DNA of 64,000 nt from the NCBI GenBank assembly GCA_947500415.1, contig CANMRT010000001.1, positions 124,001 through 188,000 on the forward strand. The letters are read 5' to 3'. A program made the translations under genes and the position numbers. This document shows, piece after piece, positions 42,395 through 61,194 of this stretch (position 1 is its first letter; every line of letters begins with the position of its first letter). The notes beneath the pieces were generated by a model. That model had not been told where the DNA came from. It did no database searches and worked only from the letters and a program-made list of their open reading frames with translations. Source of the DNA: an uncultured Roseicyclus sp. (GTDB taxonomy: Bacteria > Pseudomonadota > Alphaproteobacteria > Rhodobacterales > Rhodobacteraceae).

Positions 42395-42971
42395 ATCCAA
42401 GTTCCTTCAAAAAGGGGCTGTCGTGGGCCAGAGCCGGGGGCAGCAGTAAATCCCGGCTTCGGCGGTCTATGCGTTAGCTTTATGTTAACTATTCTTTGCG
42501 CCGCAACGCTGAGCTGACTGATCAAACTCGCGTCTGAATATGCAATAAAAGATGTGTCATTTTCGCAACACTGCCGACGTAGCTGCGATGAAGGCTAAAC
42601 CGTTCTCCTACAACAAAATTTCGACAAGACCGCCTCATTTGCGTTGGCATTGCCGCTGCCACACAACATGTTGCGGCGTAGTGAAACCCCTTTGTCACGC
42701 GATATCTCGCCGAATCTGGCCGAATTTGGGGTAGCTAGGCGCTGCTAGAGTTACGCCAGTGATGCTGCCCGCATTGGATACATCCGCACATGTACGAAAC
42801 CGTTTGGATCCCCGCAAATCTGCCTGCGTCAGACCAATTTCGCGCTGTGCGCAGATGCATTTACTTGAAACCAATCAACGCATCGCGCAGAAGCTATGGT
42901 GCCGTGGGGGCATGAGTTTGGTGGGATTTGGCACCGCTCAGAGGCTGCATTTTTTTTACTAGGAATATTTT
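42395..42971. other. Long divergent intergenic region before the polyketide synthase
   Basis: 577 bp without a credible gene, between the barrel gene and the polyketide synthase. The PKS start has AGGA seven bases upstream (AGGAATATTTTATG), preceded by a T8 run. Room exists for promoters of both genes and a long leader; I saw no clear operator or riboswitch. Confidence 0.45.
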
Positions 42972-45900
42972 ATGAACACCCAGAGTAGTCGTTTTCCCGT
43001 TGGGTCAACTGACCCAATCGCCATCGTTGGCATGGCGTGTAATTTGCCGGGCGGGAACCACACACCTGACGAATTCTGGTCGTTTTTGCTGAAGAAGCAG
43101 TGTGGGATCACCGAAATCCCGGCGGACCGTTGGGACAAGGTTGCGTCATACGACCCCAACCCCCATGCGATTGCCAAAGCGGTCAGCAAATGGGGCGGTT
43201 TCGTTGACAGCATTCGCGACTTTGACGCCAAGTTCTTCGGCATTTCACCACGCGAGGCGGCCTCGATGGATCCGCAGCAACGCATGGTGCTTCATGGTGC
43301 CATCGAAGCAATTTGGGATGCCCAGATCCCGTTGGAAGACCTTTCGCGAGGCTCCACCGGTGTGTTCATCGGCATCTCTCAATCTGACTACCGCGTCATC
43401 CAGGAGATGCGGGTCACGAGCGCTGAAGCGTTTGCCGGCACAGGCTATGCGCTTTGCATCAATGCCAACCGCATTTCGCACCGGCTCAACCTTAAAGGGC
43501 CAAGCCTTGCAGTTGATACGGCCTGCTCCTCATCGTTGATGGCCCTGGATCAAGCGGTTCATAATCTAAGATCCGGTGCTTGCGACGTGGCATTGGTCGG
43601 CGGTGTGAATTCGTTGATCCACCCGTCCCCTTTTCTGGCCTTTTCCAAAGCTGGAATGATCTCCCCCACCGGGGAGCTTTCGACGTTTGATGCATCGGCC
43701 AACGGGTTTGTGCGCGGCGAAGGGATGGGCATGGTTGTTCTGAAACCTCTTGGCCATGCCGTGGCCAATGGTGACCGGATTCATGGTGTGATCCATGCAA
43801 CGAGCACCAACCAAGACGGTGGTACCAACACGATCACAGCGCCCAGTCAGGCATCCCAGATCGGCATGCTGCGCAATTTGATGCGACAAGTCGAGGTTTC
43901 GGCAGATCAGATCGGATATGTCGAGGCGCACGGAACCGGCACCCCGGTCGGCGACCCCATCGAAGCGGGCGCCATCGGAACGGTGATCGGACAGAATTCG
44001 CCCGACCTACCGGTTTGGGTGGGGTCAAGCAAAGCGAACGTCGGTCACTTGGAAAGCGGTGCGGGTATCACCGGGTTGATCAAGGCAACTCTGGCTGTGA
44101 AGCATGGCATCGTGCCCCCAAATATTCGCTTCAAGAAAGCAAACCCAAACATCCCTTTCGACGCCTTGAACCTGCGGGTTCCGGTTGATGCCGAACCCTT
44201 CCCGGAAACAGGTGGCGACCGATATGCCGTTGTGAATTCATTCGGGTTCGGAGGCGCGAATGCCAGCGTTCTGATTTCGTCGGCCCCAACCGGAGTAGAG
44301 GCGCCACGGCCTGCATTGATCGCAAAGCCCGCAGAAGTGGAAACACCTTCGAAACGCCTGCCATTGTTCTTCCCATTGTCCGCTGCATCACAGGACGCAT
44401 TGCAGGCAAATGCGGCAGCGTTGCTGAAAGCGATGCGTGCGAAAGGCGAGCTGGCACAGACGTCCTTGCCCGATCTGTCCGCAGCATTGGCGACCAAGCG
44501 CGGCCACCTAATGCGCCGTGTCGTCGTTCTGGCTCGCAGCGAACGCGAGCTGAAAACCGCACTTAAACGAATTGCCGCCGGAGACTTCGACGCGGAAAAT
44601 ATCGTCGCAGGCCAAGTCAAAGCAGCCCGCAAGCTCTGCTTTACCTTTTCCGGACAAGGCAGCCAGTGGTGGGCCATGGCGCGCGACCTTCTGGAACACA
44701 ACGCCACATTTGCAGATGCTGTGGCCGCATTTGACGCGGAATTCCAACCGGTTGCAGGCTGGTCCATCCGCGAAGAGTTGCTTCGTGATCGAGAACAGTC
44801 GCGAATTGATGACACGACCGTCACGCAGCCCGGGTTGTTTGCTATCCAATATGGTCTTGCAGCGGTTTGGGCGGAACTGGGTATTCAGCCTGACATGGTT
44901 ATCGGCCACTCCATCGGCGAAGCGGCCGCGTCCCACGTGGCGGGCGGCCTTTCCTTGAAGGGGGCTGCCAAGTTTCTGTCCAAACGCGGGGCGATCCGTG
45001 ATCAATTGGGGCAGAAGGGCGCGATGGCAGCGATCGGGATGCAGCCTGATGACGTCGAAGCGATCCTGCCGCCAGACGGAAAGCTAGGGATTGCCGCGGT
45101 AAATGGCCCGGGATCGACGACCATTAGCGGTGATTTCGACGCGCTTCACGATTTTGTAGAAGAATTCCAGATGCTACGCCCGGATACTTTCATCCGCGCG
45201 CTTGCCGTGGATACGGCTTGGCATTCCTACCACCTTGATGCGGGAGAGGCTTGGTTCCGGCGCGAGATGTCAAACATTGACTGGAGCGTGCCGCAGCTGC
45301 CCTTCATCTCAACGGTCACAGCGCAGCCAGAGACGCGATTTGATACAGACTACGGCTGGTTGAACTTGCGCCGCCCGGTGAACTTTCAGGGCGCGGTGGA
45401 AACTGCCGTCGACATGGGAGCCACAACGTTTCTGGAGCTTGGTCCTGCCGCAACCTTGGCGGGCCCGACGCGAAGCACGACCCTCGAAAAAGGTGCTGAT
45501 GCGACCGTGCTTAGCTCGCTCACCCGCAAGGGCGGAGACTTCGACGCTGTGGCGCGCGCAGCTGCGACCCTGTTCGTAGAAGGATCCGACCTGGATTGGG
45601 GACAGATCGCTGGCAGCCCATCGGTTCATGTAGAGTTGCCGCGATACGTTTGGCAGATGGAGGAGTTTTGGCAGGATTCCGAGGAAAGCCGGGACGTTTT
45701 GCTGAAGCCAGTCAAGCACCCCTTTCTCGGGCAGCGCAATCGCGCGCAGTCCACGTCCTGGTTGTCCGAGATAAACCTGAAAGCCTACGATTTCTTGAAA
45801 GATCACCGCCTCGGCGGCGATGTGATCTTTCCGGCCGCTGGCTATGTCGACACCATCGTCGCCGTTTGTCGTGAACTTTTCGGGACTTCCGGCGTCCTGG

Positions 45901-48900
45901 AATTGGAAGACGCCGTCATCCACGAAGCCCTGTTCATTGCGGCGGATCAAGACATTTTGCTGAGCACCACCTACGATGAAGAACGCAAGCGTGTGAAGGT
46001 GTTCTCGCGTGCGCGGGATGTCGAAGATGAGTGGATACTGCGCTGCGAGGCGCGCGTGCGCATGCTTGACCTTCCCGCGCCTGCGGTTCGCAAAATTGAT
46101 GTAGGCAAAGCCGGGCTCTTCGAGGTGCCGACATCTTATGTCTATGAGCCGGGTGTTGAAGGCACTTTCATCAACTACGGCGCCACGTTCCAGACCGTAG
46201 ATGCGCTTAGCCTGTCGCGTTCGAAAACCTACGCATCCGTCAATCTGCGTGAAGAGCTCAAAGACAGCACATTGAACTTCCACGTTCATCCGACCGTTCT
46301 GGATGGCTGTCTTCAGGTGATCGAGCCAAGCATGCGCATTGATCGCGTCAATCGTGGACGCAGTGTTACCGATCCCATGTCATTGCCAATTGGCTTCAAA
46401 CGTCTGCGCTTGTATCAGGACTTCCCCGACTCCGTGCTCCTGGAATCTCGACAGCTTAGTGCGTCTGAGAACAAGGATTGGACCGGCAGTTTTGATGTGC
46501 GCGATCCCGACGGGCGTATGTTGATGAGCGTTGAAGACGTGCAAGTTCGCGTCATTCCGTCCAACATCACCGAAAGCACGGACGAGGAGCATCCTGCCCA
46601 CATCGTGCGGCAAGACATCGTTGAACTGCGCGGGAACGCGGAATTGGCACCTGAGGCTGGTCAGTGGATTGTTCTTGAAGACGCGCCCGGTTCGGCGACG
46701 AAGATTGCGGGTGCGCTTGCCGTCGCCGGAGCAGAGGTCCGCTCAATCCCACGTGGAGAATTGGGTGACGACGCGAGCGGCGGATTGCTCGACCTTATCG
46801 GAGATGCGTTAGAAGAGGGCGCGGTGGACGGCATTGTCGTGACGTGGCCGCTTGACCTGCCGCGTTTCGACGACAGCACCGATCCGGATGCCCTATTTGC
46901 CCCAATCGAGGCCTGTGTAACGGACATGATCGCATTGGGTGACATGATGGACTATGCACGCGGCGGTACAAATGGTCTGCCGCAGATTGTTGTACTTACG
47001 TCAGGCGCTTATCCCGAAGCTAAGGATCATTCTGCCGGTGCAAGTATCCTTACCCAGATGCCGATGGCTGCATTGGCGCGGGGACTGGCCACCGAAACGC
47101 CCGAATACAAGGTGCGGGTCATTGACGGTGATGGCGATACCCTTGCTCGGCCAGATATTCTAGCTCGTCACATCCTGACTCCATCCCCCGAAAGCGAGCT
47201 GATCCTGAAGGACGACCGCCGGTTCGTGCCGCGCCTTCAACGGATTGCCGCCAACGATCTGGATCCCAAGCTCTTGTTAGTCCCGGCTACGGATCGCGAC
47301 ACCAATTTCCACCTAACGATGCGCAATCCCGGTGTCATCGACCATTTGGGCCTGTTTGAAGTCCCGCTTGAACCTGTTGGTGCGGATCAGGTGCGCTTGC
47401 GGATCTCGGCTGTTGGCCTGAACTTTCGCGATATCATGGCCGTAACCGGCCTATTGCCGGCGGAGGCCGAACCGGAACCTGCGTGGCAGCAGTTGGGCTT
47501 GGAATTTGGGGCTGTGGTTGAAAGCGTCGGGGCCAAAGTGTCCGACCTGAAGCCAGGCGACCGGGTTATGGGGCTGGGCAAGCGGTGCCTGCAACGGTTC
47601 ATGACGGTTGATGCAGCCGCAGTTACGCCGTTGCCCGAAAATATCACCCTTGCCGAAGCCTCAACGATCCCAAGCGCCTTTGCCACGGCGCATTACGCGC
47701 TGAACCACGTGGGTCGGATGCGCAAGGGAGAGCGCGTCTTTATCCATGTGGCAACGGGCGGCGTCGGCACCGCAGCGGTGCAACTGGCACAAGCCGCCGG
47801 AGCTGAGATCTTTGCGACCGCCGGCAGTCCTGCGAAACGCAAACTGCTTCGCGACATGGGGGTTCATCACGTGATGGACTCACGCTCGCTTAAATTCGCA
47901 GATGACGTGATGCGGATTACAAAGGGCAAGGGCGTTGATATTCTGCTTAATTCACTGCCCGGCGACTACATCATCAAGGGGCTTGAGATCATGGCCCCCT
48001 ACGGTCGGTTCCTCGAAATCGGCAAGCGCGATGTCTATGAGGACGCCTCTATTGGGATGAAGGCTCTCCGTCGCAATGTCTCGCTTTCGGTGCTAGATCT
48101 GGCTGCGATGGGTCTGGAGCGCCCCGACCTGATGGAGGGACTGTTCGCAGAGCTAGCCGGCATGTTGGAAAACGGTCAGTTGACCCCGCTTCCCGTGACG
48201 GAGTTTCCGATCAGTCGGGCGAATGACGCGATCCGTTATATGAGCCAGGCCAAGCACATCGGGAAGGTCGTTGTCTCTCTCGAAGAAGATGACTTCCAAG
48301 TGCGCCGGGATCGTACGAGGCCTGTGCGTCTTGAAAAGAACGCATCCTATTTGATCACGGGTGGCACCGGCGGCTTCAGCCTGAGTGTTGCGGAGTGGTT
48401 GGCCAAGGCCGGGGCCGGACATCTCATTCTGGCGTCTCGATCAGGAACGGTGAAGGCGTCAAACGCGGGCTTCATCCGCAAGTTGGAGGCGTGGGGCGCA
48501 AAAGTTACCCCGGTGGCATTGGACGCCACCAATGAGGACGCCGTCATAGCACTCATGAAGGATTGCGACGCCAACGGCGCGCCAATGCGTGGCATCATCC
48601 ATGGTGCGGCTGTCATCAAGGACGGCATGGCCAATCAATTGACGCCCGAGATGATTACCGAAGTCCTTTCACCGAAAGTGCGCGGTGCCTGGGTGCTTCA
48701 TCGTGCCACCGAACAATGCGGGCTCAAGCTGGATTTCATGATCGGGTTTTCTTCGATTTCGCAGGTCATTGGCTCTGCCGGGCAGAGCAACTACATCGCC
48801 GGAAATGCGTTCCTTGATGCGCTTGCACACTACCGGTCATCGATGGGTCAGCCGGGCATGGCCATCGATTGGGGCGCAATCGCCGACGCGGGGTTCGTGG

Positions 48901-50606
48901 CGCAGAACAAGGCACTGGGATCCTATCTGGAAAGCGTCGGCCTGCACGGGCTGCACCGCAAAGACATTGCGCCCGCAATGGAGGTTGCCGCATCGCTGGA
49001 TGTTGCGAGCTTCGTATACTCGCGGGCCGATTGGCCGCAAATCGCGCGGGCCAACGCGGCCTTGGGAAGCACTCCCCGCATCGCATCGGTCTTGCAAGAA
49101 GACAAAGCTGGCGCGCAGGAAGTTCGGGTGCGCCTGATGCAGCTGGAAGGCGACGCGCTGATCGATGCAACGCGTGACTTTGTGACGGACGAACTTAGTG
49201 GCGTTCTCAAAATCGATAAGGCCGCTATCGAAACTGCCCGCCCCATGAGCGAACTTGGCCTCGACAGCTTGTCGTCCTTTGAATTGAAGGTGCGTATTGA
49301 GACGGCGCTGGATCAAGGCATGCCGATCTCGAAATTCCTGCAAGCGCCTTCAATCGACCAATTGGCAGACATGCTGGCGGTCGAAGTCGAGAAGATGAAA
49401 CTCGACGAGGCAGCAGTGGCTGAGCAAGCGGACAACGGCGAACAAACGACCGCCACAGTTTCTAAGCGACTGATGGCGACCAATCGACAGCGCGGGATGC
49501 TGCATGCGGCCGGATCATCGATGACGTCAGACGCCGTTCGGCAAGCGAATGAACATGAGACCACCCGAACATTGCCTGAGGCCGTCGATCGCAAGGCGAT
49601 CATGTCGGCGATCTGGCGGCTGAAGTTGCGCCATCCGCTGATCACAACTCGGATCGACGATGAAGGCGGCTTGAATTTCGATGGCTCAATCCCTGAAGTT
49701 GGCGATCGCGCCGACGCCGGAATGTTGCAGGCGTCAGCTGGCGAATTCGTGCGGATCTCTGTGCCCCAAGACGACCAGTGCACCCTCATCGTTCGGATGC
49801 ACGCCATTATTGGCGATGGGCGGGCTTGTGATGCGTTGGCCGACGACATTGTCATCCAGCTGGAAGGCGGCAGCTTACCGAAGCGCATGACGCAGCGCGC
49901 CCTCACCAGTGGACTATCGCGCGTGGCCTTCGATCCCGACGATCCGATTTGCCAGCAGGATCGCGGGTTCTGGTGGTACAGCCTCGCCGGGCATGGCGTT
50001 ATTAACCCCGTACCGTTCGCACGCCGCCAGCGCGCCTTGCTGCCCGGTTGGGCCGGCCGCAATCATGGGCCTGCAAAGTCCATTGACATCAAAGCTGGCT
50101 CTGACCTCTCTGAGGCCGAAATTCTAAGCGGATTTGTGACTTCCTTGCGCAATGCGACGAGTAGTCAGGGCGCGGTGCTAGTTGCGCGCAAGTCCCGCAC
50201 GTTGGCCAGTTCAGTCAACACTGAGGCCGCATCATTGTTCGAAGTCGAGCAACCCGTTTTGGTACCGGAAGCCGGGGCCGGGCCGATCGCGCGCGCAAAA
50301 CTTGACCGCGTCCTCGCCCACGCGGATGCGCATCTGACATTCGATTGCCACATGGCCGCGGTTGAATTTCGAGAGCTGTTTGACCCGACCGGTGCATCGC
50401 CGTTCCAAATTGCTTGGGAGCCAATGGCCGCTTCCTCAGGGGAAGAGGTTCCGGCGAGCGCCCTCGCAGACATTCGGTTGCGCCGGATGGACAAAGGCAC
50501 CATCCAGATGCTCTACGATCAGGACGTCATGGATCACGCCATGGCTGAAACAATTGCAACCGGCCTGAGCGTCCAGACCAAGTCGAAAGCCATGAGCAAT
50601 GTCTGA
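42972..50606 (+). CDS. Type I polyketide synthase, fully reducing, with C-terminal condensation-like segment
   Basis: A 2544-residue single-module synthase. KS spans about 13-437 with Cys185, His320 and His359. AT spans about 555-850 with Ser647 in GHSIGE and TAWHS at the specificity site. DH spans about 915-1195 with His945 (HRLGGDVIFP) and Asp1111. A non-catalytic KR-like spacer (about 1220-1430) has no methyltransferase motif. ER spans about 1445-1770 (ATGGVGTAAV). KR spans about 1790-2025 with TGGTGG, Ser1928 and Tyr1941. ACP spans about 2060-2140 with Ser2099 in LGLDSL. Residues 2165-2540 resemble a condensation domain, but HHxxxDG reads HAIIGDG (2277-2283). No thioesterase is present. 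The domain order matches mycobacterial Mas/Pks2. It likely builds a saturated acyl chain iteratively and hands it to the acyltransferase encoded nine bases downstream. Confidence 0.92.
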   Translation: MNTQSSRFPVGSTDPIAIVGMACNLPGGNHTPDEFWSFLLKKQCGITEIPADRWDKVASYDPNPHAIAKAVSKWGGFVDSIRDFDAKFFGISPREAASMDPQQRMVLHGAIEAIWDAQIPLEDLSRGSTGVFIGISQSDYRVIQEMRVTSAEAFAGTGYALCINANRISHRLNLKGPSLAVDTACSSSLMALDQAVHNLRSGACDVALVGGVNSLIHPSPFLAFSKAGMISPTGELSTFDASANGFVRGEGMGMVVLKPLGHAVANGDRIHGVIHATSTNQDGGTNTITAPSQASQIGMLRNLMRQVEVSADQIGYVEAHGTGTPVGDPIEAGAIGTVIGQNSPDLPVWVGSSKANVGHLESGAGITGLIKATLAVKHGIVPPNIRFKKANPNIPFDALNLRVPVDAEPFPETGGDRYAVVNSFGFGGANASVLISSAPTGVEAPRPALIAKPAEVETPSKRLPLFFPLSAASQDALQANAAALLKAMRAKGELAQTSLPDLSAALATKRGHLMRRVVVLARSERELKTALKRIAAGDFDAENIVAGQVKAARKLCFTFSGQGSQWWAMARDLLEHNATFADAVAAFDAEFQPVAGWSIREELLRDREQSRIDDTTVTQPGLFAIQYGLAAVWAELGIQPDMVIGHSIGEAAASHVAGGLSLKGAAKFLSKRGAIRDQLGQKGAMAAIGMQPDDVEAILPPDGKLGIAAVNGPGSTTISGDFDALHDFVEEFQMLRPDTFIRALAVDTAWHSYHLDAGEAWFRREMSNIDWSVPQLPFISTVTAQPETRFDTDYGWLNLRRPVNFQGAVETAVDMGATTFLELGPAATLAGPTRSTTLEKGADATVLSSLTRKGGDFDAVARAAATLFVEGSDLDWGQIAGSPSVHVELPRYVWQMEEFWQDSEESRDVLLKPVKHPFLGQRNRAQSTSWLSEINLKAYDFLKDHRLGGDVIFPAAGYVDTIVAVCRELFGTSGVLELEDAVIHEALFIAADQDILLSTTYDEERKRVKVFSRARDVEDEWILRCEARVRMLDLPAPAVRKIDVGKAGLFEVPTSYVYEPGVEGTFINYGATFQTVDALSLSRSKTYASVNLREELKDSTLNFHVHPTVLDGCLQVIEPSMRIDRVNRGRSVTDPMSLPIGFKRLRLYQDFPDSVLLESRQLSASENKDWTGSFDVRDPDGRMLMSVEDVQVRVIPSNITESTDEEHPAHIVRQDIVELRGNAELAPEAGQWIVLEDAPGSATKIAGALAVAGAEVRSIPRGELGDDASGGLLDLIGDALEEGAVDGIVVTWPLDLPRFDDSTDPDALFAPIEACVTDMIALGDMMDYARGGTNGLPQIVVLTSGAYPEAKDHSAGASILTQMPMAALARGLATETPEYKVRVIDGDGDTLARPDILARHILTPSPESELILKDDRRFVPRLQRIAANDLDPKLLLVPATDRDTNFHLTMRNPGVIDHLGLFEVPLEPVGADQVRLRISAVGLNFRDIMAVTGLLPAEAEPEPAWQQLGLEFGAVVESVGAKVSDLKPGDRVMGLGKRCLQRFMTVDAAAVTPLPENITLAEASTIPSAFATAHYALNHVGRMRKGERVFIHVATGGVGTAAVQLAQAAGAEIFATAGSPAKRKLLRDMGVHHVMDSRSLKFADDVMRITKGKGVDILLNSLPGDYIIKGLEIMAPYGRFLEIGKRDVYEDASIGMKALRRNVSLSVLDLAAMGLERPDLMEGLFAELAGMLENGQLTPLPVTEFPISRANDAIRYMSQAKHIGKVVVSLEEDDFQVRRDRTRPVRLEKNASYLITGGTGGFSLSVAEWLAKAGAGHLILASRSGTVKASNAGFIRKLEAWGAKVTPVALDATNEDAVIALMKDCDANGAPMRGIIHGAAVIKDGMANQLTPEMITEVLSPKVRGAWVLHRATEQCGLKLDFMIGFSSISQVIGSAGQSNYIAGNAFLDALAHYRSSMGQPGMAIDWGAIADAGFVAQNKALGSYLESVGLHGLHRKDIAPAMEVAASLDVASFVYSRADWPQIARANAALGSTPRIASVLQEDKAGAQEVRVRLMQLEGDALIDATRDFVTDELSGVLKIDKAAIETARPMSELGLDSLSSFELKVRIETALDQGMPISKFLQAPSIDQLADMLAVEVEKMKLDEAAVAEQADNGEQTTATVSKRLMATNRQRGMLHAAGSSMTSDAVRQANEHETTRTLPEAVDRKAIMSAIWRLKLRHPLITTRIDDEGGLNFDGSIPEVGDRADAGMLQASAGEFVRISVPQDDQCTLIVRMHAIIGDGRACDALADDIVIQLEGGSLPKRMTQRALTSGLSRVAFDPDDPICQQDRGFWWYSLAGHGVINPVPFARRQRALLPGWAGRNHGPAKSIDIKAGSDLSEAEILSGFVTSLRNATSSQGAVLVARKSRTLASSVNTEAASLFEVEQPVLVPEAGAGPIARAKLDRVLAHADAHLTFDCHMAAVEFRELFDPTGASPFQIAWEPMAASSGEEVPASALADIRLRRMDKGTIQMLYDQDVMDHAMAETIATGLSVQTKSKAMSNV

Positions 50607-50615
50607 GGCATCCGG

Positions 50616-52001
50616 ATGATCAGCGTTGGCCGCGGGCGTTCTGGTCGGACGGAAGCGGCGCGCGCCCTTGTTCAACCTGTGTCGATTTGGCAGGAAACTC
50701 TGCTGAAATTCGAAGAAGATCCGCAGTGCACGGACGATTTCCGGCACATGCTTTTGTTAAGCCACACGACCTTGGTCAAACCAAGGCTGGACAGGCGTCG
50801 ACTTCAGCGTGCGCTGGACAAGGTATTTCTTCGGCACGACAGCCTCAGAATTCGGTTCGAACGGATCAAGGGCAAATGGCGTGCAGTTGTTGCTCCGCCG
50901 GGGCCAGTCGAAATCGTAGAAATCGACGCAAGCAACGCCGACCCGGTCGCTTTCAATGCTGCGATCATGGAGACCGCCAACAAACCATTACCGCTTATCG
51001 GTGGACCGATGGCAGAGGTCGTCTTGGTCAGGGGAGGGGTGCATGGCGATGCAGTCATTGCGCGGGTGCATCACGCCATTTCCGACGGTTTCGGAATGGT
51101 TGTTCTGTTTGAAGATTTGTTCAAATACCTCATGGGCTTGCCGGTTTTGGAGCGTGCAGTCAGCCATGCCGATTACATCACGAATTTTCAGTCGCCCCCG
51201 CCAGCCCGGGTCGCCGAGATAGAGGCATTCTGGGCTGAGCTACATCGTGACTTTCCCAAAACGCCAGTGCTTGGTCGCCTTACGAAAGGCCGAACCAACC
51301 CGCCCCCAATCTTGGGTGAACGCATCATGCGCACCCTAACACTGATGCTGTCAAAGCGCGCCCAAGAGCGTTTGAAGGCTTTGTCCACTAAGCTGAACGT
51401 ACCAAAGACTACCTTGATCTTTGCCACCCACTATCAAGCAGTTTGCGAGAGCTTTGATCTGGACCGGGTCGCCTTCATGTCCCATGTCACCCGCTCCGAC
51501 CCCAGATTGGCGACCTTCATGGGTGACCACACCCTTGATCCGCTTCTGATATACACCCGCGTTGCGCGTGCAGATTTTCAAAGTGCCATTGTCGAATTGA
51601 GCCAAACTTACATGAAGGTCATGGCGCATCTTCCGTCAAATACGGCGCGGTTAGGCACGGACTATTGGGACCATTTAGTTGCACAGGGATCATATCCCGG
51701 CCAATTTTCGGCCTACCAACCCCGTGCTGTTTCCAGGGAGGATAAGTCGCTCTTCAAACAGGCTTTTCGCAGCCCTTTGGGAACAGAATTTAGTCTTGGA
51801 CCCTATAAGGTTTCTGCGGTCGAGGCTGGGCGATCGACCCGGATATCGTTCGATCTGCAGATTAAGATCGACCCGTTGGATCCCGCAACGATAAGGCTTC
51901 GGTTCGATAAGCTGTCGCTTGATGATCATGAGGTTCAAAAGGTGGCCGATACGATGAGCGACCTGTTGGGTGTTGAATTCGTCGAGGCGGATCTTTCATG
52001 A
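50616..52001 (+). CDS. Condensation-domain acyltransferase (Pap/WS-DGAT-like)
   Basis: A 461-residue stand-alone protein of the condensation/chloramphenicol-acetyltransferase superfamily with intact catalytic HHAISDG at 152-158. Family members include NRPS condensation domains, mycobacterial polyketide-associated PapA acyltransferases and wax-ester synthases. Next to a PKS lacking a thioesterase, it most likely moves the ACP-bound chain onto a hydroxyl or amine acceptor. It starts 9 bp after the PKS stop and its own stop overlaps the sulfotransferase gene by ATGA. The C-terminal half lacks an obvious DFGWG. The acceptor is unknown. Confidence 0.85.
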   Translation: MISVGRGRSGRTEAARALVQPVSIWQETLLKFEEDPQCTDDFRHMLLLSHTTLVKPRLDRRRLQRALDKVFLRHDSLRIRFERIKGKWRAVVAPPGPVEIVEIDASNADPVAFNAAIMETANKPLPLIGGPMAEVVLVRGGVHGDAVIARVHHAISDGFGMVVLFEDLFKYLMGLPVLERAVSHADYITNFQSPPPARVAEIEAFWAELHRDFPKTPVLGRLTKGRTNPPPILGERIMRTLTLMLSKRAQERLKALSTKLNVPKTTLIFATHYQAVCESFDLDRVAFMSHVTRSDPRLATFMGDHTLDPLLIYTRVARADFQSAIVELSQTYMKVMAHLPSNTARLGTDYWDHLVAQGSYPGQFSAYQPRAVSREDKSLFKQAFRSPLGTEFSLGPYKVSAVEAGRSTRISFDLQIKIDPLDPATIRLRFDKLSLDDHEVQKVADTMSDLLGVEFVEADLS

Positions 52002-53176
52002 CGGCACCTCAACAAAAGACCCGCAAGATCACTGCGCGCGACGAGGACTACAAACCGTTCGAGCTGCGGCTGTGGCACGGCATTTCTCTGGATGTTTGGC
52101 TGCGGTTGATGCGCGGTCGCTGGGGCAAAGTCTCTCCCCGACGCTATCCCTTGCTGACCACCATCACGTTGATCTCGGCCGCCACGCTTGTGAAAAAGGG
52201 CTTGGTGCAGGCGATCTACGGGCGTCGTCTTGCGCAGGTTCGGATCGAACCCGATCCCGTCTTTATCCTGGGCCATTTTCGTAGTGGAACGACATGGCTG
52301 CATGAAACACTGGCCGCTGACCCGGCATTCTGCGGACCATCGTCGATGGCGTGCTTTCACCCAGATGGATTTCTGTTGGGGCGCGGGTTGTCCCGCGCAA
52401 TCATGGCCCTTCTTGCACCCAAGAAACGGCCGATGGACAACGTGACCGTTGATCAGGACTCGATGCAGGAAGACGAAGTTGGCTTGCTGATGTCGGGGGG
52501 ACCCACGCCGTATCAAAGCCTGCTGCTGCCCTGCGAGCCGGAAGACAGCTTTCCGCCGCCCACCACTGGTCAGATGACATCTGACCAAGCCGATGAATTT
52601 CGCCGGATCTGGATGGGCTTCCTGCGCAAACTGCAATTCTGCCATCCAGGCAAACGCCTGCTGCTGAAGTCGCCGCTCCATACAGTGCGCGTCGATGAGA
52701 TCGTGCGCCTATTTCCGAATGCGAAGTTCATTCATATCGTTCGTGATCCCTACAACATCTTTGTCTCCAACCGCAAAACGATGTCTTCGATGCTGGTGTC
52801 GCAGGGCCTGCAAGACCGCATCCCTACCGATGAAGTGCTGCAAGAGCTTGGGCTGGCCAATTTTGTTCGCTTCCACGACCAGTTCGACGAAACCAAGCGC
52901 GTCATTCCATCCGAAAACTTGGTCACAATTCGCTACGAAGACCTCCGGGTCGATGTGCCTGGAACCATTCGTGGGGTCTACGACAAGCTAAAATTGGGCA
53001 ACTTCGACGATGTCGCGGACATCTATGAGAAGAAGGCCGAACAAGCGCGCACGTACAAGACAAACACATTCGGGATCGATGCGGATGTGGTGGAAGTGGT
53101 CGACACGCATTGGCATCAATACTTCGAACAATACGGATACCTGAAAGCTGCTGATCGTCCCGGTGGGGTCGCATGA
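51998..53176 (+). CDS. PAPS-dependent sulfotransferase
   Basis: A 392-residue sulfotransferase. The 5'-phosphosulfate loop GHFRSGTTWL (92-101) and the 3'-phosphate site IVRDPYNIFVSNRK (247-260, Arg249 and Ser257) bind PAPS. A semi-hydrophobic stretch near 50-72 may touch the membrane. It transfers sulfate to a hydroxyl (or amine) of a small molecule or lipid. ATGA overlaps on both sides join it to the acyltransferase and the MMPL exporter, strong evidence of a shared product. Confidence 0.9.
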   Translation: MTAPQQKTRKITARDEDYKPFELRLWHGISLDVWLRLMRGRWGKVSPRRYPLLTTITLISAATLVKKGLVQAIYGRRLAQVRIEPDPVFILGHFRSGTTWLHETLAADPAFCGPSSMACFHPDGFLLGRGLSRAIMALLAPKKRPMDNVTVDQDSMQEDEVGLLMSGGPTPYQSLLLPCEPEDSFPPPTTGQMTSDQADEFRRIWMGFLRKLQFCHPGKRLLLKSPLHTVRVDEIVRLFPNAKFIHIVRDPYNIFVSNRKTMSSMLVSQGLQDRIPTDEVLQELGLANFVRFHDQFDETKRVIPSENLVTIRYEDLRVDVPGTIRGVYDKLKLGNFDDVADIYEKKAEQARTYKTNTFGIDADVVEVVDTHWHQYFEQYGYLKAADRPGGVA

Positions 53177-55449
53177 ACGCTGCCAACCGGGTTGCCGCGG
53201 TCCTGCTACGTTTCAATTGGATTGCACTTATCGGACTGGCCATGGTGTTGGCGTTTCTGGCGATGGGGGTCGGACGCCTTCAAGTATCGTCGGACACACG
53301 GGCGTTTTTTGGTAGCGGCAATCAAGATTATGAAGACCTCCGCATGGTGGAGGACGCCTACACGCGGCCTATCACGTTGCTGCTTGCGATTGTCCCTCCG
53401 GACGGTGCGGCATTTGCTCCGTCAACTTTGGAGGTGCTGCGGCAATTTACCGATGATGCGTGGCAGGTGCCTTACGTCTTGCGCGTGGATTCGCCAGTCA
53501 ACCACATGCACACCTTCGCGGACGGTGAAGACATTTTTGTCGAACCAATGCTGGACGAGTTTGACGACATCACGCCCGAGATGGCCGCCCGGTTTGCTGA
53601 ATTGGCCATGGGCTCGGATGGTTTGCGCAACACGCTTTTGTCCGAGAACGGCGATGTCTTCGGGATCACAATTCGCGTTGTTTTGCCCGACGGAGAAGCG
53701 GGCGCAGCCGATACGATAGAAGCTCATGTGCGCGAGATGGGCCAACGTTGGGAGGCCGAAAACGACGGCTGGAGTGTTCACACTCTGGGTGGGCTCTTGG
53801 CGAACTCGTTGCTGCGGCAAGTGGCGCTTGAAGATATCCGGTATCTGGTGCCGCTGGCCTTTCTGGCCGCGATGGGGTTTCTGACCCTCGCCCTGGGCTC
53901 GCTCAGATCGGTGGCGGTCACGATCCTGGTCTTGGCAGTTTCAACACTTGCGACGTTCGGCTTTGCGGGTTGGATTGGGGTCTCGCTCAGTGCTGGAACG
54001 GCCATCAGCCCGCTTGCCGTGATGGTGTTGGTGTCGACGTCTTGCGTGCACATCATCATCAGCACGGTTCGCGCCGCCCAATCAGGCCGGGATGCACAGC
54101 CCTTCGACCTGGCAATCCGTGAGAACTTGGCCCCCGTTACGGTCAGCCACCTGACGACGGCATTCGGGTTTCTGTGCCTTAACTTCGCGCCCTCCCCACC
54201 CCTGGCCAACATGGGGACAATCGTGGCGTTTGGAATGGTCTTCGGGCTTGTAGCCGTGTTCGTGATCCTGCCCACGTTCTTCCGAAAAAAACCACCAATT
54301 GGCACCGGTCGTTTGATGGTAACGCCGAACGGCATGCGCAAATTTGCGGATTGGGTCCTGCGGACAAGCCGCATCTGGCTGGTCGTCTTTCCTGTGTTAG
54401 CTATGTTTGCGCTCTATGGTGTCAGCCGCATCGAATTCAACGATAACGTCATCCGTTACTTTGATGACCGCTATGAATTGCGCCAGGACGCCGAGGTTAT
54501 CCAAAACCGGCTGACGGGGCTGGAAAATCTGCAATTCTCATTGCCGGCGCCAGCAGGGGCAAGCGTATTCGACCCCGACTACCTACGCGCGATGGATCGC
54601 TTTGCCGATTGGCTACAGGTCCAGCCAGACGTGGTCTCTGTCTCAGCGCTCAGCAACATCATCGAAAGCATCAACCTTTCGATGAATGATGATGACCCCG
54701 ATGCCCAAGCCATTGCCGATACTCAGGAGGGAAACGCGCAGCTTCTGATGTTCTATGAACTGTCATTGCCCGTTGGCATGGATATGAACACACTGCTGGA
54801 TGTAGATCGTAGGAATTCCCTGGTCAGCGTTACCGTCCGGGCGCCGCATGCCCGTGATTTGCGCGCCCTTGCCGTTCGAGCTGAGGCATGGCTGGCCGAG
54901 AACGAAGGCGAGATCGCATCCCGGGCCACGGGGTTGTCGATTGCATTCGCGCGGATATCTGAACGCAACAACAGCCAGATGTTGACCGGATTTCTTGTCG
55001 TCCTTTGTCTTGTATCGCTAACCTTGGTCGTCACGTTGCGCAGCCTTCGATATGGCCTGATCAGCTTGATTCCCAACCTGTTCCCAGCGCTGTTGGCGTT
55101 CGGGCTTTGGGGTATGATCCTGGGAGATGTGAACCTGGGGTCGACCGTGGTGACGACCATGACCTTTGGCATCGTGGTCGACGACACCGTGCATTTCCTG
55201 ATGCACTACTTGCGGTGTCGTAGGAGGAATATGCCAAGTGCCGCCGCCCTCGAAGAGACGTTCTCGGTTGTTGGCTCTTCCATAATGCTCACTTCGCTTG
55301 CCTTGATTTTGGGCTTCGCTATCATGGCAGCTTCAGGATTTGCCATAAATCAACATATTGGATTGTTGACAGCTATCGTGGTGTTTTTTGCGCTGCTGTC
55401 AGACTTATTTTTCCTGCCAGCAGTGCTGGTTAGACTCCGGAGTAATTGA
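53173..55449 (+). CDS. MMPL/RND-family lipid exporter
   Basis: A 758-residue inner-membrane protein with two repeats, each having one helix, a large periplasmic domain, then five helices. The first helix is at about 14-32, helices 2-6 lie about 225-370, the second half starts near 395, and the last helices lie about 600-755. The layout matches MmpL and hopanoid/lipid RND exporters rather than the larger drug pumps. The ATG lies in the sulfotransferase stop (ATGA). It likely moves the finished sulfated lipid out of the inner membrane, as MmpL8 does for mycobacterial sulfolipid precursors; that analogy is inferred. Confidence 0.9.
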   Translation: MNAANRVAAVLLRFNWIALIGLAMVLAFLAMGVGRLQVSSDTRAFFGSGNQDYEDLRMVEDAYTRPITLLLAIVPPDGAAFAPSTLEVLRQFTDDAWQVPYVLRVDSPVNHMHTFADGEDIFVEPMLDEFDDITPEMAARFAELAMGSDGLRNTLLSENGDVFGITIRVVLPDGEAGAADTIEAHVREMGQRWEAENDGWSVHTLGGLLANSLLRQVALEDIRYLVPLAFLAAMGFLTLALGSLRSVAVTILVLAVSTLATFGFAGWIGVSLSAGTAISPLAVMVLVSTSCVHIIISTVRAAQSGRDAQPFDLAIRENLAPVTVSHLTTAFGFLCLNFAPSPPLANMGTIVAFGMVFGLVAVFVILPTFFRKKPPIGTGRLMVTPNGMRKFADWVLRTSRIWLVVFPVLAMFALYGVSRIEFNDNVIRYFDDRYELRQDAEVIQNRLTGLENLQFSLPAPAGASVFDPDYLRAMDRFADWLQVQPDVVSVSALSNIIESINLSMNDDDPDAQAIADTQEGNAQLLMFYELSLPVGMDMNTLLDVDRRNSLVSVTVRAPHARDLRALAVRAEAWLAENEGEIASRATGLSIAFARISERNNSQMLTGFLVVLCLVSLTLVVTLRSLRYGLISLIPNLFPALLAFGLWGMILGDVNLGSTVVTTMTFGIVVDDTVHFLMHYLRCRRRNMPSAAALEETFSVVGSSIMLTSLALILGFAIMAASGFAINQHIGLLTAIVVFFALLSDLFFLPAVLVRLRSN

Positions 55450-55450
55450 G

Positions 55451-56260
55451 ATGAAACTTCATCGTCGAACGTTTATTGCTGGCCCCGCTGTTTTGCTGGC
55501 AGGGGGCTTGGCAACGCGGCTTGGCGCGCAGTCGGAAAGCGCCGAGGCGCGCGGGCTGAGGATTGCGACGGAGGCCTCTGACCGCGCCGGCGGCTATCAG
55601 GACGTGACGGCAGATGGTGAAATGACCCTGCGGACTGCCAGCGGACAGAATGCGACGCGGCGGTTTGAAACGCGCTGGATAAGCACGGGCCCCGGGCAGA
55701 CAAGATCGCTTATGGTATTCGAATGGCCCGGCGACATTCGCAACACCGCTTTGCTGACCCACACGTATGAAGGGCGCAATGACGACCAATGGCTGTTCCT
55801 TCCCGCGATGGACCGTGTGCGCCGGATCACCGGATCCGGTCGATCCGGATCATTCGTCGGCAGTGAGTTCGCATTCGAGGATATGGTCGATCAGGAGGTC
55901 GACAAATTCGACCACGCTTGGGTAAACGACGGAGCGTGTCCCGCCGGTGGCTCTTGCCATATCATCGACCGCGTGCCGAACACGCGTTCGTCGGGGTATA
56001 GCCGTCAGCGCATTTGGCTTGATCAGGCGCATTTGCGTCTGCAGCAGGTACAGTATTTCGACCGTCGCGGGGCGCACCTGAAAACGCTGACGATTTCAGG
56101 GTACCGCCAACACTCCGGGCGTTGGTGGCGACCGCAAAGAATGGACATGTCTAACCATCTGACCGGGGCTAGCACCCGATTGGATTGGAGCGGGTACACG
56201 TTTAACCAAGGTTTGTCGCCCAACGCGTTCACCACCAACGCGCTCGGCCGCATTCGCTAG
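55451..56260 (+). CDS. LolA-like outer-membrane lipoprotein-sorting family protein
   Basis: A 269-residue exported protein. The start HRRTFIAGPAVLLAGG looks like a twin-arginine or ordinary signal peptide ending near LGAQS. The mature part has the LolA-like beta-sheet pattern seen in proteins encoded beside RND lipid exporters: GEMTLRT, WPGDIRNTALL, WLFLPAMDRVRRI, SGSFVGSEFAFEDM. It starts one base after the exporter stop. It probably shields the lipid product during periplasmic transfer. I chose the ATG at 55451 because the upstream in-frame codons lie inside the exporter gene. Confidence 0.82.
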   Translation: MKLHRRTFIAGPAVLLAGGLATRLGAQSESAEARGLRIATEASDRAGGYQDVTADGEMTLRTASGQNATRRFETRWISTGPGQTRSLMVFEWPGDIRNTALLTHTYEGRNDDQWLFLPAMDRVRRITGSGRSGSFVGSEFAFEDMVDQEVDKFDHAWVNDGACPAGGSCHIIDRVPNTRSSGYSRQRIWLDQAHLRLQQVQYFDRRGAHLKTLTISGYRQHSGRWWRPQRMDMSNHLTGASTRLDWSGYTFNQGLSPNAFTTNALGRIR

Positions 56261-56390
56261 GCCAAGAATTGTTGCCTATCGGCAAGCGTCTGAGAATTGT
56301 TTTCCCTTGGCGCGCTGCCAGCGTTTCGCCCTATCAGTCGATAGGTTAGCGTCGATTAAACACTGCCATTTAGGTTGCTTGGGGGCTTCC

Positions 56391-57752
56391 ATGAATTTTC
56401 GCAAAACGTCTTGTGTCTTGGCCTGCCTTTTTGCGGCGCCAGTAAGCGCGCAAACCTCTGATTACCTGTCGCTTTCGGCTGAAACCGAACTCGGCGCGCG
56501 CTACTACTTCGAAGACGGGGCCTTCTTTGGCCAATCAGATGCCGGCCTCTATCCCTATTTCGGGGTTCGTCTGAACGCTGATCTGGAACTTGAGGATGGG
56601 GCGATTATCGGCGAAATCAGTGGACTTTTCGACGACTTCAACGAACGTTCGGTCCTGAATATTCAACGCCTCTACTACACCAGCAGCTTTGACACCTGGG
56701 ACTACCTGATCGGCTACAACGTGGAAGATTGGGGCGTCAGCAACGGGCGCACGATCGTCAACGTGCTCAACAGTCGCGATCGCGCCAACCAGGTCGGCGA
56801 TAGTGAGCTTCTAGGCACACCGATGTTGAATGCAAACTTCTTCACCCAAATCGGGACGTTCAGCGTTTATGCCCTGCCGGGCAACACGATCGAGAACTTT
56901 GGCGGTTTGAATTCCCGCTATCGTGGTCCGCTTTATACCGACGATGATCTCATCGCCTACGAAACCGATAATCCGCTTAACTTCGCCGTGCGGTTCACAA
57001 ACAACTATGCAGTTGGACAGGGCGCGCTGGATGTTGGGGCCTCCTTTTACATTGGCGCAGATCGCGAGTCCGTCGGGCTTTTGGGGTGTAACCGCCCAGG
57101 CCCTGGAGTGGACGCCGCGACCTGTAATGCGATCACGGCCGCCTCCATCGCAAATTTCGAAAGTGGCAACGCTGCCCCTTCAACGCAGGCCGAGATTGAC
57201 GCTTTCCTGGCCACGAACTTTGGCCCCGGGGTTGCCGCGAATGCCGTGAACTTCGGCCTGCTGGCATCAGCGCCATATTATCAGGATATCAATCAATTCG
57301 GATTGACGACCGTCTACACTCAGGGGAACACGCAGCTGCGGTTCGAGGGTTTCGTGCGCAACACCGAGTTCGAGACGTTCTCTGGCGCAATTGTTGGCGG
57401 CGACTATACGTTCAACGATTTCATGGGCGGTGCCGGCACGCTGATCGTCTCCGCCGAATATCACTACGACAACCGTAGCACGCGGCAGCCGGTGACGGCA
57501 TTCGCAGATGATGTGTTCCTTGCAGCGGCCTATTCCGCCAATGACACCAACGACACCCGCATTGATGCCAGCGTCTTCATCGACGTGGACGATGACGCGC
57601 AGCTGTTCACTCTCGGGGCGTCGCGTCGATTGGGTGACAACGTAAGTTTGGGAATGCATGCGAGCCACGTTGACGCGGCTCCATCCAACGATCCGCTGTC
57701 TTTTGTGGACGATGACTCCTTCGTGGAGTTCTCGCTGTCGATCTTTTTCTGA
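56391..57752 (+). CDS. Outer-membrane beta-barrel protein of the PKS cluster
   Basis: A 453-residue protein with a signal peptide ending near PVSAQT, many amphipathic strands (for example ARYYFEDGAFFGQ, YYTSSFDTWDYLIGYN, GTLIVSAEYHYDN) and a terminal FF. In layout it resembles DUF1302-type barrels found with LolA-like and RND genes. It lies 130 bp after the LolA-like gene on the same strand. It probably receives or displays the exported lipid at the outer membrane; it could also be a separate porin. The start at 56391 precedes the signal peptide directly. Confidence 0.75.
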   Translation: MNFRKTSCVLACLFAAPVSAQTSDYLSLSAETELGARYYFEDGAFFGQSDAGLYPYFGVRLNADLELEDGAIIGEISGLFDDFNERSVLNIQRLYYTSSFDTWDYLIGYNVEDWGVSNGRTIVNVLNSRDRANQVGDSELLGTPMLNANFFTQIGTFSVYALPGNTIENFGGLNSRYRGPLYTDDDLIAYETDNPLNFAVRFTNNYAVGQGALDVGASFYIGADRESVGLLGCNRPGPGVDAATCNAITAASIANFESGNAAPSTQAEIDAFLATNFGPGVAANAVNFGLLASAPYYQDINQFGLTTVYTQGNTQLRFEGFVRNTEFETFSGAIVGGDYTFNDFMGGAGTLIVSAEYHYDNRSTRQPVTAFADDVFLAAAYSANDTNDTRIDASVFIDVDDDAQLFTLGASRRLGDNVSLGMHASHVDAAPSNDPLSFVDDDSFVEFSLSIFF

Positions 57753-58020: not shown

Positions 58021-58797
58021 CTAAGCCATTTGAACGCTTGCTGGAGCTTCCTTGGCGCCGGTCATGAAAGCGACGGCGTCTGACATGGTGTAGTCCTTTG
58101 GGTCCACGACACAAAGTCTGCGGCCTAGTCGATGCACGTGGATTCGATCGGCAACTTCGAATACGTGGGGCATGTTGTGACTGATCAGGATGATCGGAAT
58201 GCCCCGAGACCGGACGTCTAGGATCAACTCCAACACCTTTCTCGACTCTTTGACCCCGAGTGCCGCAGTGGGTTCGTCGAGGATGATGACCTTCGAGCCA
58301 AACGCGGCTGCGCGTGCCACCGCGACGCCTTGTCGTTGTCCCCCCGACAGCGTCTCAACAGCCTGATTGATGTTCTGGATCGTCATCAAACCCAGCTCAT
58401 TCAGCTTCTCGCGCGCCTTGGCCTCCATCGCGGCCTTGTCTAACTGCTTCAATATCGTTCCGCGCCAGCCAGGTTTGCGCAGCTCGCGCCCCATGAACAT
58501 GTTGTCTGCAATCGATAGCGCAGGGCTGACGGCCAACGTCTGATACACGGTCTCGATCCCGGCATGGCGTGCGTCGTTCGGTGAGGCGAAATTAACGCGC
58601 TTACCTTCCAACTCGACCTCACCTTGGTCGGGCACAACCGCCCCCGACAGCGCCTTAATCAGAGTGGACTTGCCCGCCCCGTTGTCGCCGATCACGGCCA
58701 GGATTTCCCCCGGGTAAAGATCGAAGTCGCAATTATCGAGGGCAACCACCTTGCCGTAGCGTTTAGTCAGGTTTCTGCCTTTAAGAATGGGTTGCAT
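58021..58797 (-). CDS. frcA: Fructose-type ABC transporter, single-domain ATPase
   Basis: A 258-residue ABC ATPase: Walker A GDNGAGKST, signature LSGGQRQ, Walker [13 protein letters not shown]. Like rhizobial FrcA it is a single nucleotide-binding domain rather than the double domain of RbsA. Its start shares the A of the frcC stop (TGATG). It is the last gene of frcBCA. A longer open frame upstream lies within frcC. It likely powers import of fructose, and perhaps mannose or ribose as in Sinorhizobium. Confidence 0.9.
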   Translation of the reverse strand: MQPILKGRNLTKRYGKVVALDNCDFDLYPGEILAVIGDNGAGKSTLIKALSGAVVPDQGEVELEGKRVNFASPNDARHAGIETVYQTLAVSPALSIADNMFMGRELRKPGWRGTILKQLDKAAMEAKAREKLNELGLMTIQNINQAVETLSGGQRQGVAVARAAAFGSKVIILDEPTAALGVKESRKVLELILDVRSRGIPIILISHNMPHVFEVADRIHVHRLGRRLCVVDPKDYTMSDAVAFMTGAKEAPASVQMA

Positions 58798-59951: not shown

Positions 59952-59994
59952 TTTTTTTGCCCCTGTCTTCCATCAGTCGCGGTCGAGATTTTCA

Positions 59995-60018
59995 AAGGGC
60001 GGACCTTGGCCCGCCCTT
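59995..60018 (-). terminator. Intra-operon hairpin between frcB and frcC
   Basis: AAGGGCGG (59995-60002) pairs with CCGCCCTT (60011-60018) around an 8-nt loop. On the transcribed strand a short TTT follows. A partial terminator or 3' stabiliser would favour binding-protein expression over the permease, the same design as between xylF and xylH. Confidence 0.6.
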
Positions 60019-60055
60019 CTTCTAGCATAATGTTGGGCGTTTAACCCGGCTCAAA

Positions 60056-61075: not shown

Positions 61076-61194
61076 GGTGTCCTCCCAAGACAGATTTCCG
61101 GCAGCTGTGCGCCGCCTAATCAGCGATCCCTCCTCAGGTCGCTTGCCTCCAAAAGTCACGATTCGAGCGGGCCTGTCAATTAATTAGTTAACTT

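Follow-up and report, generated by a model that had tools for sequence, protein, structure and literature searches.

The mycobacterial sulfolipid-1 pathway employs Pks2, PapA1/PapA2, Stf0, MmpL8 and FadD23, the PapA acyltransferases being marked by a PapA_C domain. In cyanobacterial olefin synthases, a sulfotransferase drives decarboxylative elimination. A sulfotransferase-elimination mechanism has also been described for curacin, and the same paper presents the swf cluster of sponge symbionts, for which its authors suggest an alkyl sulphate product (PMC3908369). On the export side, AmeABCD of Castellaniella defragrans is described as uniting an HAE3 pump, a LolA-superfamily periplasmic protein and an outer-membrane protein in one cassette (PMC6394551). 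In Thalassolituus oleivorans, MMPL and LolA-like parts are fused into one protein that neighbours a porin-like one (TOL_3187/TOL_3188); the fusion is more abundant on a C28 alkane, and it is proposed to help position the porin (PMC6304351).

Here we describe a six-gene set at positions 42972-57752, plus strand, of a 64,000-nt window, the window being the whole stretch of DNA analysed. All families found in it fit a pathway with a chain-building step, an acyl transfer, a sulfation and an export through the envelope. On balance we lean toward the reading that the product is a sulfated lipid of polyketide type, most plausibly an acyl ester, which the operon's own export genes bring to the outer membrane.

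Layout of the six-gene set

The first-pass annotation had proposed six consecutive same-strand genes, and an open reading frame check found all six intact at the positions given, with no internal stops. The gene joins that it had reported are likewise real: the sulfotransferase gene shares 4-base ATGA overlaps with both the acyltransferase and the MMPL gene, and a single base lies between the MMPL stop and the ATG of the LolA-like gene. The features are as follows.

42972-50606, +, type I single-module reducing PKS, 2544 aa (Pfam domains, structure match)
43011-44291, +, KS (Pfam ketoacyl-synt)
44640-45587, +, AT (Pfam Acyl_transf_1)
45717-46562, +, DH (Pfam PS-DH)
47316-48278, +, ER (Pfam ADH_zinc_N)
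48342-48884, +, KR (Pfam KR)
49179-49376, +, ACP (Pfam PP-binding)
49467-50603, +, condensation-like domain at the PKS C-terminus, lacking HHxxxDG (motif loss, profile matches)
50616-52001, +, free-standing condensation-superfamily acyltransferase, 461 aa, HHAISDG (PF00668)
51998-53176, +, sulfotransferase, Sulfotransfer_3, 392 aa, RSGTTWL motif (PF13469)
53173-55449, +, MMPL/RND pump nearest HAE3 and HpnN, 758 aa (PF03176, TIGR00921)
55451-56260, +, predicted LolA-like periplasmic carrier (PF17131, 3bk5 match)
56391-57752, +, predicted outer-membrane beta-barrel (C-terminal Phe, strand prediction, porin-like matches)

The most likely barrel start is the ATG at 56391, as judged from the sequence, inside a longer frame with TTG starts upstream to 56307. 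A site scan returned promoter-like and terminator-like signals only at or below shuffled levels. The set has a GC content of 57.5%, compared with 58.9% elsewhere in the window, which is evidence neither for nor against transfer. The six genes include no acyl-activating enzyme, acyl-AMP ligase, glycosyltransferase or head-group gene, nor a regulator or self-resistance gene. When flanks of 0.8-18 kb were compared across loci, no extra gene (acyl-AMP ligase, PPTase, regulator) was shared; general ABC-transporter similarity aside, flank matches were confined to small locus groups. Elsewhere, the genome carries an APS kinase match and one phosphopantetheinyl transferase match (PF01648).

Biosynthetic genes

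The PKS has a MAS-type architecture, with one KS-AT-DH-ER-KR-ACP module and no thioesterase, and is collinear over its full length with MAS-type enzymes; its best full-length solved match is mycocerosic acid synthase (MAS) 9d2y (residues 14-2116, E 3.6e-288). KS, AT, the DH His/Asp, the ER loop and the ACP Ser are kept in the orthologues covering them, the seven that extend over the AT motif region all have TAWHS there, and the KR Ser and Tyr are retained in all nine. Full reduction is nonetheless not assured, since the nucleotide loop of the KR departs from the regular pattern (fifth position K or R in L088-L090; final G replaced by S in L086 and the window) and the DH HxxxG glycine survives in only one of seven sequences, that of the window.

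The PKS ends in an extra condensation-like domain that the first-pass annotation had not mentioned. Profile comparison relates it to the neighbouring acyltransferase family (probability 97.9, E 6.4e-13) and, weakly, to condensation domains of NRPSs and to the lovastatin synthases MokA/LovB, and its weak predicted structure (pLDDT 65) matches condensation domains and X-domains. HHxxxDG is absent from it in 9/9 orthologues, and the domain is probably non-catalytic, with a docking or recruiting role. The free-standing acyltransferase, in turn, keeps the catalytic HHxxxD[GA] in 9/9; Condensation (PF00668, E 3.7e-22) is its sole Pfam match up to E 0.01, a threshold at which PapA_C gave no match.

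The sulfotransferase belongs to Sulfotransfer_3 (PF13469, E 4.3e-30, 106 bits against a cut-off of 27), its only Pfam matches being PF13469, PF00685 and PF17784. RSGTT, which marks the PAPS-binding loop, and the R249...S257 region are invariant among nine sulfotransferases, and the N-terminal stretch is moderately hydrophobic.

The first-pass annotation had seen in the set a mirror of sulfolipid-1 assembly. This stands for the kinds of step and for the MAS-like PKS: both systems have a single-module reducing PKS, a condensation-superfamily acyltransferase, a sulfotransferase and an MMPL-superfamily pump. It does not stand for the families. The operon's Sulfotransfer_3 enzyme, without a PF09037 match, takes the place of Stf0; the PKS scores 1190.2 bits against the Pks2 equivalog NF041183 (cut-off 2400); and the pump, nearest HAE3 rather than MmpL8, reaches 54.3 bits with the actII/MmpL model TIGR00833, far below its cut-off of 874.7. 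The operon has no acyl-AMP ligase, while the sulfolipid-1 list includes FadD23, and it carries in addition the degenerate condensation domain on the PKS, the LolA-like gene and the barrel gene. Judged by these comparisons, the likeness to sulfolipid-1 is an analogy. That the operon is a true homologue of that pathway, making a sulfated acyltrehalose, is therefore very improbable: the cast of enzymes is similar, the PKS is MAS-like and a Stf0-family gene (PF09037) does lie elsewhere in the genome, outside the operon, but the failed Stf0, PapA_C, MmpL and Pks2 tests, the missing ligase and the lack of a genomic PF00982 match for trehalose supply by the OtsA route speak against it.

The sulfotransferase could also act on another substrate or serve elimination. 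Its solved matches are headed by two entries deposited as uncharacterised, followed by CurM (4gbm) and a PKS sulfotransferase (4gox), which would suit an enzyme that activates a beta-hydroxyl for decarboxylative elimination, the exported product then being an alkene or other unsulfated lipid; the link of an MMPL-LolA fusion plus porin to long alkanes (PMC6304351) points the same way. We nevertheless give this explanation little credence. The set lacks a thioesterase, the sulfotransferase stands on its own as a protein, the DH and ER of the PKS, if active, would remove the hydroxyl, and the conserved acyltransferase suggests release via acyl transfer.

Envelope genes and recurrence of the set

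The pump matches MMPL (PF03176) in two stretches (E 3.9e-21, 75.8 bits against a cut-off of 20.5) and shows 12 hydrophobic segments, some overlapping, in a simple scan. Its best NCBIfam match is HAE3 (TIGR00921, 89.1 bits, below the cut-off of 351.9), its best solved match HpnN (6wu0). The LolA-like carrier and outer-membrane barrel of the first-pass annotation were both borne out. The former matches LolA_like (PF17131, E 9.2e-54, 182.3 bits against a cut-off of 30) and 3bk5 (E 2.6e-72), and by eye begins with a signal-like stretch. The latter matched no family in a Pfam search; it ends in Phe in 9/9 and is mostly beta strands in a weak predicted model (mean pLDDT 61.4, pTM 0.61) whose top matches among solved structures are porins and AlgE, the alginate exporter.

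Counting the window, the complete set occurs in ten loci, nine of which have the gene order of the window; these make up only about six divergent groups; G239 is 85-91% alike to L091/L092 and the PKSs of L087-L089 are mutually 75-90% alike. It is carried by L013 (on the same contig as L086 and G064), G239 (L014+L015), L085 and L087-L092. The first-pass annotation had named a lack of conserved synteny as grounds for refutation, and the outcome spoke for its reading; all eight carriers with named records belong to Rhodobacterales. The set was found in 5/394 genomes of the family and 1/13 of the genus, and is rare and patchily distributed, yet conserved in marine alphaproteobacteria.

Eight of these loci came from a search of genome contigs with an ACP-region profile (A8), which demands that two degenerate peptide patterns be matched exactly (78 stretches did so) and can therefore miss members. 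All six genes are present in each of the eight, as they are in G239, and the grouping is not due to chance, because they recur together. Across seven loci, the six proteins diverge in parallel, with correlations of 0.75-0.99 between their pairwise distances, values that still include the strains' shared ancestry. A single sulfotransferase sequence as query against the genome contigs gave zero matches. Sulfotransferase matches outside the cassette lay mostly in unrelated surroundings. In a family search with the sulfotransferase, five of seven non-self matches had no other cassette gene within ~20 kb, and among 17 non-self matches at class and phylum level the cassette was found in none of the 12 places inspected (G484, G482, G568, G379 and G677 were left out, and contig ends cut L041, L042, L045 and L047). 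A weak MMPL match lies close to the sulfotransferase in L044, L047 and L048.

The last three genes also occur without this PKS in other genera. Of 14 loci that have barrel relatives outside the cassettes, 7 have MMPL and LolA-like genes as well, and in three of the seven (L080, L081, L083) they are fused as one ORF, as described for TOL_3187/TOL_3188 (PMC6304351). MacB/FtsX and ABC genes adjoin the LolA-like and barrel genes in 2/14, although the MacB-type pump of L079 may be an ordinary tripartite one, since HlyD and OEP are encoded there too. Terpenoid genes, for squalene/phytoene synthase or squalene epoxidase-cyclase, lie near barrel relatives in 2/14. With barrel relatives thus accompanied by LolA-like proteins and MMPL or MacB-type pumps where no PKS is present, the last three operon genes seem to form a module for lipid delivery that can be reused.

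This independence could mean that two adjacent modules share no common product: a PKS-acyltransferase-sulfotransferase part and an envelope part for tolerance or uptake of hydrophobic compounds, much as the comparable Castellaniella set supports monoterpene tolerance (PMC6394551). We regard this as improbable, given that the six genes recur jointly in the eight contig-search loci and G239, and that the sulfotransferase and MMPL genes, one from either part, overlap or lie within ~75 bases in 8/8 loci. An unlikely alternative, though one to be taken more seriously, is that a sulfated polyketide ester leaves the cell and diffuses away, be it as a surfactant, a signal or an antibiotic, with the barrel as release pore. 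The likeness of the weak barrel model to porins and AlgE would agree with this, as would the description of AmeABCD (HAE3, LolA-superfamily and outer-membrane proteins) as an efflux channel (PMC6394551) and the rarity and patchiness of the set, typical of many secondary-metabolite clusters. Yet LolA-like carriers and fused MMPL-LolA forms fit a hydrophobic cargo shielded from water, and the six genes come without a regulator or self-resistance gene.

Proposed pathway and described systems

For the sulfated outer-membrane lipid that we favour, we infer product, acceptor, sulfation site and transport direction as follows. The MAS-like PKS, whose domains are all recognizable, would work iteratively, extending on its own ACP an acyl chain that is for the most part reduced; the iterative mode, the extent of reduction, the length of the chain and the extender unit are predicted. 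Its dead condensation-like tail, which has observably lost its motif, may keep its partner acyltransferase, or else some other tailoring enzyme, close to the ACP. The free-standing condensation-type enzyme, with its motif in place, would release the chain onto an acceptor, giving an ester or an amide. The sulfotransferase, of evident family and binding motif, would transfer sulfate from PAPS onto a hydroxyl of what we presume to be this lipid. Finally, in a route and direction suggested by the families of the three envelope proteins, the MMPL pump would extract the product from the inner membrane, the LolA-like protein would ferry it across the periplasm and the barrel would receive it at the outer membrane.

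Tentatively, and with somewhat more doubt than conviction, we suggest a broader reading: that this is the first Gram-negative sulfated polyketide lipid with a complete synthase-to-surface path, in which a dead PKS domain recruits a live release partner, sulfation follows, a dedicated pump-carrier-barrel route takes over, and the trio of pump (MMPL or MacB-type), LolA-like carrier and barrel is exchangeable among hydrophobic products. If the favoured reading is right, the outer membranes of some marine Rhodobacterales would bear an undescribed sulfated lipid, independent of the mycobacterial route, and the operon would offer a compact case in which a pump of RND type, together with a LolA-like carrier and a barrel, transfers a bulky lipid from inner to outer membrane. 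Among the open-access papers listed by searches for a described counterpart and for the export part, none described this set; the comparable published sets that we did find deal with the metabolism of alkanes and monoterpenes.

Like the operon here, the swf cluster pairs a one-module KS-AT-DH-ER-KR-ACP PKS with an adjacent sulfotransferase; SwfB, however, is a reductase-sulfotransferase fusion, whereas the sulfotransferase here is single-domain, SwfC is a radical SAM protein, and the swf operon as described there lacks genes for a condensation-type acyltransferase, an MMPL pump, a LolA-like protein and a barrel (PMC3908369). The porin-like protein of TOL_3187/TOL_3188 resembles our barrel in having no known domain, but the text consulted mentions no PKS or sulfotransferase alongside (PMC6304351). 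AmeABCD has a DUF1302 barrel and an extra periplasmic protein, AmeC (PMC6394551), whereas the barrel here matches no Pfam family and the six genes include no AmeC counterpart. AmeABCD is described for monoterpene efflux and tolerance and TOL_3187/3188 for alkane growth, neither of them for lipid delivery. Judging from PDB titles (6cgo, 4tx3, 6m7l), condensation-type chain release, as proposed here, is known for the enacyloxin PKS, and the condensation-like X-domains of glycopeptide synthetases bind a tailoring enzyme. Unlike in those cases, the dead condensation domain here is fused to the PKS, the live one is separate, and binding between them is predicted.

The six-gene set and its recurrence

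The window sits in contig C1 of a 4.0-Mb genome. All six plus-strand genes that the first-pass annotation had proposed at 42972-57752 are found there, with the claimed boundaries and overlaps. Searches of the six proteins against Pfam and NCBIfam assigned PKS domains, Condensation, Sulfotransfer_3, MMPL and LolA_like, while the barrel protein encoded by the sixth gene had no family match in either.

Genes of the set and its surroundings
upstream: peptide-type ABC transporter
upstream: MlrC-like gene
41417-42400, minus, upstream: ORF with weak outer-membrane-barrel matches
42972-50606, plus: PKS
50616-52001, plus: condensation-type acyltransferase
51998-53176, plus: sulfotransferase
53173-55449, plus: MMPL pump
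55451-56260, plus: LolA-like protein
56391-57752, plus: barrel protein
downstream, minus: sugar-type ABC transporter

None of the flanking genes in the window is biosynthetic in appearance. The sugar-type ABC genes (58021-61159) share 63-78% identity with genes lying 5-8 kb past the operon of another carrier genome, G239, where their orientation relative to the operon is opposite to that in the window.

Probing regions around sulfotransferase matches by tblastn with the six window proteins, we observed all six genes in locus L013 (genome G064) and across L014 and L015 (both G239), at identities from 26% (acyltransferase) up to 58% (LolA-like). A profile pattern scan of the genome_contigs collection for the ACP region returned eight loci, all with the complete set, the PKS being interrupted by contig ends in L085 and L087. 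The carriers are Aestuariivita boseongensis, Oceanicola sp. S124, Pseudooceanicola antarcticus and Marinibacterium profundimaris, classified by NCBI as Rhodobacterales (three Paracoccaceae, one Roseobacteraceae), plus four MAG or uncultured Rhodobacteraceae records, one of them the G064 contig. Gene order equals the window's in seven of the eight; in L085 (Aestuariivita) the acyltransferase gene is placed after the barrel gene on the opposite strand. The acyltransferase ORF of L087 (Oceanicola, 2015-3163) is short at 382 aa, ending ~80 residues early through either truncation or a sequencing frameshift.

Together with the window and G239, ten distinct loci thus carry all six genes, showing the set to be more than a chance juxtaposition. 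These loci are not independent and form about six groups, since the PKSs of G239, L091 and L092 are 85-91% alike and those of L087-L089 75-90%. A further genome, G133, has LolA-like (54% identity) and barrel (41%) genes at a contig edge.

The PKS C-terminal domain occurs in 5/394 family genomes (E <= 1e-10) and the sulfotransferase in one of 13 genomes of the genus (E <= 1e-20). At E <= 1e-50, sulfotransferase matches were seen in 9/385 class-sample and 7/398 phylum-sample genomes, own genome included; of the 17 non-self places, 12 were fetched, and none of these had the set. Across seven loci, the six proteins have pairwise distances that correlate at 0.75-0.99, lowest for acyltransferase versus LolA-like, which fits transmission as a unit, with strain relatedness contributing too. 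Flanks are dissimilar between most groups of loci.

Synthase and sulfotransferase

The best full-length solved match of the PKS is mycocerosic acid synthase (residues 14-2116). Its KS and AT motifs and the DH His and Asp are intact in all seven covering orthologues, the ER loop in eight, and the KR Ser/Tyr and ACP motif in nine. Full reduction is argued against by an irregular KR nucleotide loop, whose fifth position is K or R in L088-L090 and whose final G is S in the window and L086, and by the missing DH HxxxG glycine, present in one of seven proteins, the window's.

The C-terminal 379 residues form a condensation-like domain, matching the family of the adjacent acyltransferase in profile comparison (probability 97.9, E 6.4e-13, 361 columns) and, weakly, condensation domains of NRPSs and of lovastatin-type synthases. 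The assignment is profile-based, because structure prediction gave a weak model (pLDDT 65.1, pTM 0.51, TM-scores near 0.3). The catalytic HHxxxDG is missing from this domain in 9/9 orthologues, whereas HHxxxD[GA] is present in 9/9 free-standing acyltransferases. Titles among its structure matches refer to chain release by condensation in the enacyloxin PKS and to X-domains complexed with Oxy proteins; they suggest that the live partner acyltransferase would release the chain and the dead domain would act in recruitment.

The sulfotransferase scores 106 bits against PF13469; its nearest solved chains are 2z6v and 2zq5, deposited as uncharacterised, followed by the PKS sulfotransferases 4gox and 4gbm. 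RSGTT is invariant across nine orthologues. Residues ~52-70 are moderately hydrophobic in six of seven proteins scanned, L086 being the exception, so that membrane contact is possible. An APS kinase match within a 705-residue frame of the same genome makes PAPS supply plausible, and the single PF01648 match (249-residue frame) could be the activator of the PKS ACP.

Elsewhere in this genome lies a Stf0-family gene (PF09037, 250 bits; G000:C1:402208-402921, L101:6202-6927) beside HupE/UreJ-like and NUDIX genes unrelated to the set; PF09037 matches occur in 0/14 control genomes. In another class of the phylum, L039:49-11872 has a sulfotransferase 35% identical to the window's after a split PKS-like set (KS-AT; KR; AT-DH).

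The export part and its relatives

Barrel relatives occur in 17/248 family genomes (E <= 1e-10). Fourteen loci lie outside three cassettes: seven combine MMPL, LolA-like and barrel, one MMPL and barrel, five LolA-like and barrel (upstream sequence being short in two, L071 and L078), and one has the barrel alone. MMPL and LolA-like are fused in L080:5961-9272 (1103 aa), L081:5772-8957 (1061 aa) and L083:9489-12752 (1087 aa), each adjoining the barrel with a TetR-type regulator gene nearby. At L075:1686-7059 and L079:8001-16172, MacB/FtsX permease and ABC ATPase genes replace MMPL beside LolA-like and barrel; since HlyD and OEP genes are also present in L079, its pump may be of the ordinary tripartite type.

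L076:9081-16203 carries, on one strand, LolA-like and barrel genes, followed by genes for squalene/phytoene synthase and an MpaB/rubber-oxygenase-domain protein and finally MMPL. L073:6114-13854 may be a triterpenoid delivery locus: near its barrel relative lie genes for a P450, for LytB and for a single protein joining squalene epoxidase and squalene-hopene cyclase. A phosphopantetheinyl transferase gene follows the LolA-like gene in L084. The other neighbours, scanned in part, included no evident lipid gene except for acyltransferase_3, ~3 kb upstream in L074. From these gene arrangements we read MMPL, LolA-like and barrel as a putative delivery module that can be reused with different pumps.

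Comparison with known systems

Among the open-access papers listed by our searches, none describes the six-gene set. An iterative PKS can make lipids (sphingolipids) in a Gram-negative, according to the available part of PMC12134224, whose main text contains neither 'sulfotransferase' nor 'MMPL'. Our best reading of the product, somewhat favoured, is an acyl ester of polyketide type that carries sulfate and is delivered to the outer envelope.

The proposed sulfated-lipid system mirroring sulfolipid-1 assembly is partly supported, in that the six genes recur together and parallel that assembly line function by function. It fails at family membership: sulfotransferase, acyltransferase, pump and synthase all fall outside the sulfolipid-1 family and equivalog models (Pfam/NCBIfam), and OtsA has no match in the genome. 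Among the published sets found, the swf cluster is closest in biosynthetic logic, but lacks the acyltransferase and export genes in the portion of PMC3908369 available. For the delivery module, the accessible parts of the sources point to TOL_3187/3188 (PMC6304351) as a published relative and to AmeABCD (PMC6394551) as a looser one.
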